The translations under genes and the position numbers were made by a program. Below are positions 11,521-13,101 of a stretch of DNA of 64,000 bases, one piece after another. The notes beneath the pieces were generated by a model that was not told the DNA's origin, ran no database searches, and worked only from the letters and a program-made list of their open reading frames with translations. The DNA is from an uncultured Clostridia bacterium (GTDB lineage: Bacteria > Bacillota > Clostridia > Christensenellales > Borkfalkiaceae): the NCBI GenBank assembly GCA_947629485.1, contig CANRDX010000001.1:132663-196662 (forward strand), written 5' to 3'. Each line of letters starts with the position of its first letter. Position 1 is the stretch's first letter.

Positions 11521-11549
11521 TTGACTTTTTCGCAAAAAAACCGTATAAT
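11521..11549 (+). promoter_or_regulatory. promoter for MATE leader
   Basis: TTGACT-17 bp-TATAAT. Confidence 0.8.
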
Positions 11550-11555
11550 AAAACT

Positions 11556-11691
11556 ATAATTTCATCGAACGAAACGACACATGTGGCGCACGTTTGGGCG
11601 CGTAAATCTGATCACGGTACGCGGCGGCATGTGTCTTTTTTTATGGAAGAGCACATGCGGCGGCATGTGTTTTTTTGTTTACGGAGGCCTT
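11556..11691 (+). promoter_or_regulatory. candidate riboswitch or attenuator leader upstream of the MATE transporter
   Basis: ACACATG(577-583)/CATGTGT(628-634); GCATGTG(627-633)/CACATGC(652-658); CACATGC(652-658)/GCATGTG(663-669)+U7: mutually exclusive stems (positions relative to 11000). Confidence 0.7.
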
Positions 11692-13101
11692 ATGGAAGAG
11701 ACAAAAAACAGCTTTCTCGGGGAGGGGAAACTCGGCAAACTCATGCTGAAATTCTCCATTCCCTGTATTTTATCCCTGCTCGTCAGCGCGCTCTACAACA
11801 TTGTAGACCAGATCTTCGTCGGCAACAGCGAACTCTCCACCCTCGGCAATGCGGCGACGGGGGTCGTTTTCCCCATTTTTATCATCGCGCAGGCGTTCGC
11901 ATGGTGCTTCGGCGACGGGTGCGCCGCCCACCTCAACATCTGTCAGGGGAAGAAGGATACGGCAAGTTCGCCGAAGTGCATCGGCACGGGGATCTCCGTC
12001 ACGCTCTTTACGAGCCTTGCCCTCCTCGCCCTCTTCTACCCCTTGAAGACGCCCGTTCTCACCCTCTTCGGCGCGTCCGAGAACAGCATCGGATACGCGA
12101 CGGAGTACTTCAATATCGTCCTTGCCTTCTTCCCCGTATTCATGCTCATGAATATGATGAACGCCGTCATCCGCGCGGACGGCAGTCCCGCATGGTCGAT
12201 GGCGTCCATGCTCGCGGGCGCGCTCGCAAATATCGCCCTCGACCCCGCCTTCATCTACGGGCTGAAATGGGGCATGGCGGGGGCTGCATGGGCGACGGCG
12301 ATCGGGCAGTGTCTCTCCTTCCTCATCTCGCTCTTCTACTTTCTGCGCCGCACGAAGACCTTCAAATTGAAGTGGAAGAACCTTGTTCCCGACTTCAAAG
12401 TGTTTGCAAGCGCCTTAAAGCTCGGGGCTTCCTCCTTCATCACGCAGATGAGCATCGTGCTCATCTCGCTTGTGTGCAACATCATGCTCGCGAAATACGG
12501 CGCACAGTCGCACTACGGCGCGGATATTCCCATTGCCGTCATCGGCATCGAGAGCAAAGTCTTTACCGTCGTCATCAACATCGTCGTCGGCATCGTCCTC
12601 GGGTGCCAGCCCATTCTCGGGTATAACCTCGGAGCGGGCAACCATGCCCGCGTGAAGAAGCTCTACCGCAATATTCTTCTGAGCACGATCGGCGTGGGGC
12701 TTTTCTTCACCGTCTTGTTTGAAGCCGCCCCGCGCGCCGTCGTTTCCGTCTTCGGCTCGCCCCAAAATATCCCCAATCCTGACGACTATTGGCTGTTTGC
12801 CGAGAAGACCTTCCGCATCTTTTTATCCCTCGTGACGTTTACCTGCCTCATCAAGATGTCGTCTATCTTCTTCCAATCGGTGGGAAGGCCCGTCCGCGCC
12901 GTTATTTCCTCACTCGTGCGCGATATCGTGCTCTTCATTCCGCTCGTCTGTATCTTCCCCGTTTTTTGGGGCGTGGAGGGCATTCTCTACGCCGCGCCCG
13001 TCGCCGACGCCGTCGCTTTCCTTCTGACCCTTGTTCTCACGATCACCTATTTCAAAGGGAAAAAAGCTACTCCTGCGCCTCTTCCCGTCGGGGGAGAATA
13101 A
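11692..13101 (+). CDS. MATE family efflux transporter
   Basis: 12-TM MATE-like protein (LMLKFSIPCILSLLVSALYNIVDQIFVG...); RBS acggagg. Confidence 0.92.
   Translation: MEETKNSFLGEGKLGKLMLKFSIPCILSLLVSALYNIVDQIFVGNSELSTLGNAATGVVFPIFIIAQAFAWCFGDGCAAHLNICQGKKDTASSPKCIGTGISVTLFTSLALLALFYPLKTPVLTLFGASENSIGYATEYFNIVLAFFPVFMLMNMMNAVIRADGSPAWSMASMLAGALANIALDPAFIYGLKWGMAGAAWATAIGQCLSFLISLFYFLRRTKTFKLKWKNLVPDFKVFASALKLGASSFITQMSIVLISLVCNIMLAKYGAQSHYGADIPIAVIGIESKVFTVVINIVVGIVLGCQPILGYNLGAGNHARVKKLYRNILLSTIGVGLFFTVLFEAAPRAVVSVFGSPQNIPNPDDYWLFAEKTFRIFLSLVTFTCLIKMSSIFFQSVGRPVRAVISSLVRDIVLFIPLVCIFPVFWGVEGILYAAPVADAVAFLLTLVLTITYFKGKKATPAPLPVGGE

Follow-up and report, generated by a model that had tools for sequence, protein, structure and literature searches.

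A conserved leader RNA upstream of MATE, DUF2798-like and MFS membrane-protein genes: a candidate riboswitch class that shares strands with transcription terminators

The window, the 64,000-nt stretch of uncultured Clostridia DNA analyzed here, encodes a 469-aa MATE family efflux transporter that exceeds the cut-offs of both PF01554 (93.5 bits) and TIGR00797 (160.5 bits). Upstream lies the promoter TTGACT-17-TATAAT, found where the initial annotation had placed it. It matches the consensus at 11 of 12 positions, and only 0.2 such sites are expected from shuffles; the genus relatives in our alignment also carry a comparable promoter upstream of the element described below. From the promoter position, the transcript is expected to start at about 11556, giving a 136-nt leader. 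All of our evidence is computational. The features, all on the plus strand, are as follows.

11521–11526 (TTGACT) and 11544–11549 (TATAAT), plus strand: sigma-70-type promoter, from the sequence
11575–11620, plus strand: conserved core, a putative aptamer, CGACACATGT-G-P2-GTAAATCTGATCACGGTAC, from matches to covariance models R1 and R2 and 160 distinct loci
11575–11584, plus strand: strand a, lying within the conserved core and forming the 5′ side of predicted terminator T1, from folds and covariation
11586–11601, plus strand: P2 hairpin, arms GCGC (11586–11589) and GCGC (11598–11601) around a variable loop, from covariation
11602–11617, plus strand: GTAAATCTGATCACGG, the most conserved core element outside stems, from conservation
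11627–11642, plus strand: strand b (11627–11634), then C and U7, the 3′ side of predicted terminator T1, from folds and covariation at position H
11652–11676, plus strand: predicted terminator T2, with strand c (11652–11658), loop GGCG, strand d (11663–11669) and U7 (11670–11676), from folds; c alternatively pairs with b
11683–11687, plus strand: Shine-Dalgarno sequence GGAGG, from the sequence
11692–13101, plus strand: MATE family efflux transporter, the controlled gene, from PF01554 and TIGR00797

The initial annotation had described this leader as a three-way switch of mutually exclusive stems. The pairings are present, but the strands number four rather than three: a:b forms T1, c:d forms T2, b:c is the antiterminator, and a:d is possible too. 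Its specific readings held: ACACATG (11577–11583) is complementary to CATGTGT (11628–11634), and CACATGC (11652–11658) is followed by GCATGTG (11663–11669) and T7. The module that it saw as duplicated is indeed a direct repeat, GCGGCGGCATGTGT(C)TTTTT, with copies at 11621 and 11657 that are 95% identical. Folding of 11556–11691, a check that it had proposed, gave −50.4 kcal/mol versus −36.9 ± 3.3 kcal/mol for 200 dinucleotide shuffles (z −4.1), and no shuffle equaled the leader. A separate repeat, TTATGGAAGAG, which belongs to the start region of the MATE gene (11690–11700), recurs in the leader at 11641–11651, between the two terminators; it accompanies the terminator module, as if from local duplication.

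T1 is formed by the strand GACACAHGU, at the 5′ end of the core, and a downstream strand that precedes a U-run. For window RNA ending at the T1 U-run, the best fold is a:b, with 9 bp and −25.7 kcal/mol. Position H is variable, and the base opposite changes in step with it (U-A, C-G, A-U): of 72 cases, 57 are Watson-Crick, whereas 25 would be expected (p = 1e-4 when only the 34 unique strand pairs are counted). The predicted pairing of a with b before the U's is established by this comparison, although some relatives have a T1 without a U-run (for example, G024 and G093). The leader also contains an in-frame ATG at 11581, from which an open frame runs into the MATE gene and ends at 13101. Attenuation by ribosome stalling on a leader peptide could therefore be imagined. 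However, the ATG is not kept: relatives have ATG, ACG, or AAG, which covary with the terminator strand, and no Shine-Dalgarno sequence lies ahead of it. We rejected this candidate on these two grounds and give it next to no chance.

Downstream, a local hairpin terminator of the T2 type is present in 39 of 57 MATE loci and 12 of 87 DUF2798-like loci. Strand b is complementary to strand c in 36 distinct loci, where the b:c duplex averages −9.6 kcal/mol versus −4.2 kcal/mol with shuffled c (p ≤ 0.05 in 26 of the 36). Comparison across loci demonstrates that MATE leaders carry a second predicted terminator, T2, whose strand c can pair with b. In folds of truncated window RNA, b:c becomes the best pairing once c has been made. 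For the full-length window leader, the computed minimum combines a:d with b:c, a readthrough-like structure that arises even without ligand. Thus, an OFF state would be kinetic, reached only during transcription. When a is held unpaired, b:c forms first, yet the computed minimum shifts to T2 on completion of its U-run, so rescue by b:c would depend on folding order too. A terminator scan of the window did not detect T2, perhaps because its stem extends into the U-run.

The core spans about 45 nt, with the consensus CGACACAHGU-N-(P2 hairpin)-GUAAAUCUGAUNACGG. Aligned leaders of the genus share CGACACAYGUKGCGC-loop-GCGCGUAAAUCUGAUUACGGUAC, and the window core matches model R2 with an E value of 3e-15. 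It had been suggested that the ∼44-nt loop between the T1 arms could be the aptamer. The interval, 11584–11627, is correct, but the conserved unit extends beyond that loop to take in strand a, and the loop alone is not the putative aptamer, which includes the invariant 5′ strand CGACACAHGU. Covariation proves the predicted P2 hairpin: 59 double-sided changes were counted versus 13.6 ± 6.6 in shuffles (0 of 500 reached this count), 96% of cells are paired, 4 of 4 pairs change on both sides, and the best pair is paired in 134 of 134 segments. Both P2 and T1 therefore pass the test of covariation in homologous leaders that the initial annotation had put forward. As the loop of P2 differs among loci in both length and sequence, we regard P2 as a scaffold. 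The 3′ element, GUAAAUCUGAUNACGG, hardly varies and no stem explains this, a pattern that matches the expectation for a binding site; there are no binding data. A GUA/UAC stem within the core, suggested by RNAalifold on the genus alignment, was rejected, because the final N-A-C is not constant in the broader set. The same conservation bears on whether these are merely terminators in tandem that act constitutively, or a leader that attenuates without any sensor. The stems are strong and have U-runs, as such an explanation would have it, but plain terminators would not keep ∼25 sequence-specific positions across phyla, and many of the conserved bases here lie outside stems. We find this explanation scarcely credible.

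The core is widespread. When 101 genomes were searched by BLASTN with the leader, over 20 from the same genus as the window had the core 5′ of a MATE ortholog. Within the order, 38 of 396 genomes, from 12 genera, matched covariance model R1; model R2 matched 30 of 390 genomes of the class and 8 of 300 of the phylum, three of these last weakly. On a larger scale, public genome contigs were scanned with the pattern CGACACAHGTN{6,36}GTAAATCTGATNACGG, and the stretches of named genomes that fit it number at least 119, versus ∼0.04 expected by chance. Among the matches listed are some from Lachnospiraceae, Oscillospiraceae, Ruminococcus, Clostridium zeae, C. bovifaecis, and Pseudobutyrivibrio ruminis, as well as Eggerthellaceae (Adlercreutzia) and Treponema; the gut bacteria that carry the core represent at least three phyla. 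Viral contigs scanned with the core pattern gave no match. Since this strict pattern fixes part of the sequence and so overstates the apparent invariance, loci found without it were also examined; 41 of 51 fit the pattern exactly.

The core lies upstream of, and in sense with, membrane-protein genes. Across 160 distinct loci, the downstream gene encodes a DUF2798-like protein in 87, a MATE transporter in 57, and an EmrB/LmrB-like MFS transporter in 4; 10 are other or truncated and 2 are contig ends. Within the order, some R1 matches already lie upstream of a DUF2798-like membrane-protein gene instead of MATE, and the loci found by R2 agree (22 of 30 DUF2798-like, 3 of 30 MATE, 2 of 30 MFS). 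A Pfam scan of 65 of the proteins gave DUF2798 in 27 (weak), MatE in 17, MFS_1 in 4, and Cytidylate_kin2 in 11, the last seen as a fusion partner of MATE or of the DUF2798-like protein. The predicted model of the DUF2798-like protein is good (pLDDT 89), but the protein has no PDB neighbor by sequence or by fold and therefore offers no ligand clue. At individual loci, we observed a C-terminal cytidylate-kinase-like domain on MATE or DUF2798-like proteins and CBS domains on an MFS pump (L167, L153, L209); these domains are a possible clue to a nucleotide-linked function. At one Treponema locus (L201), the core lies 5′ of a citramalate synthase gene and not of a transporter gene.

A protein, rather than a small molecule, could in principle hold the core and block T1, as RNA-binding antiterminators of the LicT/BglG type do at their RAT sites. 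RAT sites are built as a conserved element that overlaps the 5′ side of a terminator and competes for that strand. The core shares this overlap, and computation does not exclude a protein ligand. However, RAT sites have a protein as ligand and belong to sugar operons, the gene next to the core was not identified as a regulator at any of the classified loci (only adjacent genes were considered), and the core, found in three phyla, has targets from three unrelated families. We consider a RAT-like site unlikely.

No RNA family that we searched accounts for the element. At gathering thresholds, Rfam 15, including guanidine-I (RF00442), gave no family match, so the scan against guanidine classes that the initial annotation had suggested found none, although the presence of a guanidine-IV model in this release is unconfirmed; relaxed thresholds (E ≤ 10 or 5) gave only chance-level matches (microRNA, lncRNA, other) or none. 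As a control, the same database detected guanidine-I in SMR leaders. Our comparison with guanidine-IV (the mepA motif, or GGAM-1), which the initial annotation had offered as one of two possible identities, therefore rests on published features: target genes, essential nucleotides, and kissing hairpins. In guanidine-IV and its orphan variant Gd4v, guanidine or a relative would bind two kissing hairpins and prevent the terminator. The resemblance is real: MATE genes are among the targets, the sensor overlaps an intrinsic terminator that doubles as part of it, the logic is ON (inferred in our case), and the range across Firmicutes, Actinobacteria, and Spirochaetes overlaps; Gd4v, moreover, is like the present element an orphan and enriched in the gut (PMC7736828, PMC9788692). 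Against this, sugE/SMR is the commonest guanidine-IV target, but no SMR/SugE or PnuC gene was identified at any of the 160 loci (SMR in 0 of the 65 scanned proteins). The main Gd4v targets are the transaminase PRK07324 and GNAT (PMC9788692), and neither was seen as a main target in the 65 scanned proteins and 160 loci, where DUF2798-like, MATE, and MFS genes stand instead; there was no transaminase among the loci. The essential second-loop nucleotides of guanidine-IV, G62-N3-G66-U67-N4-G72 (PMC7736828), define a G-N3-GU-N4-G spacing that is absent from the core consensus, whose conserved nucleotides are different. The two-hairpin loop-loop pseudoknot would need a conserved partner, and no conserved kissing loop is possible because the P2 loop is variable. 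Finally, the terminator here encloses P2 and the core rather than following P2. Guanidine-IV or Gd4v is thus very unlikely, and the other identity raised at the outset, a new class, is favored. SMR leaders from the class and from four named genomes, sought as guanidine-IV examples, were mostly guanidine-I; one Adlercreutzia SMR leader (L254) has a branched terminator with GGGTAGGGTTCCG and may be guanidine-IV, which is unverified. The HMP-PP (thiS) riboswitch offers another parallel, a small aptamer built from terminator nucleotides (PMC8632094), but the core precedes different genes and has no Rfam match.

In at least three phyla, this RNA sits ahead of membrane-protein genes of three unrelated groups, and no RNA family that we searched matches it; it is thus probably a pump switch for a small molecule, although the ligand is unknown. 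We put the probability at roughly three in four that the leader belongs to an unlisted cis-regulatory RNA class, the likeliest identity being a riboswitch that activates efflux genes; this inference is drawn from sequence, without ligand, binding, or transcription data. The view that the leader is a candidate riboswitch with terminator/antiterminator logic thus gains backing from cross-phylum conservation, covariation, and gene association, with ligand binding untested. We prefer an ON switch for two reasons: the targets resemble export genes, and core and terminator have strand a in common. Without ligand, a would pair with b and T1 would stop transcription, with T2 as a back-up. With a small molecule bound, a, P2, and GUAAAUCUGAUNACGG would fold together and a would be kept from b; T1 would be blocked, the freed b would pair with c, T2 would be opened, and the pump would be made. 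The unidentified ligand is probably toxic, shared by gut anaerobes, and cleared by the MATE, DUF2798-like, and MFS proteins. The fuller proposal, of a new multi-phylum riboswitch class for an unrecognised toxic gut-anaerobe metabolite that controls MATE, DUF2798-like, and EmrB/LmrB-like MFS genes, some with a cytidylate-kinase-like fusion, and whose MATE leaders operate a pair of consecutive terminators that have a strand in common, we judge a little better than an even bet.

Such a class would place under one signal a DUF2798-like membrane protein that is still uncharacterised, pumps of the MATE and MFS families, and a fusion domain resembling a kinase. Riboswitch ligands have repeatedly uncovered unknown physiology, with guanidine as the model case, and the ∼45-nt core RNA is an assay-ready handle for finding the signal. 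MATE leaders also present a natural design in which one strand serves both as the 3′ side of T1 and as the antiterminator of the next terminator. A literature search for the core sequence, or for DUF2798 or cytidylate kinase together with riboswitch, found no report; most subscription journals were outside its scope, and prior publication is not excluded.

A second unlisted motif, GTGTRGC-P2 hairpin-GCGTAAATCCAG, occurs inside terminator hairpins, mostly 5′ of MATE genes, in sister families of the order. Like the main motif, it has a P2 followed by GUAAAUC, a terminator hairpin, and an association with MATE genes, but it lacks CGACACA and UGAUNACGG. It was found in 10 of 297 genomes versus 0 for a reversed-pattern control, and it is sometimes tandem; examples are L049/L301, L059/L294, L295, L297, L299, L300, and L302.
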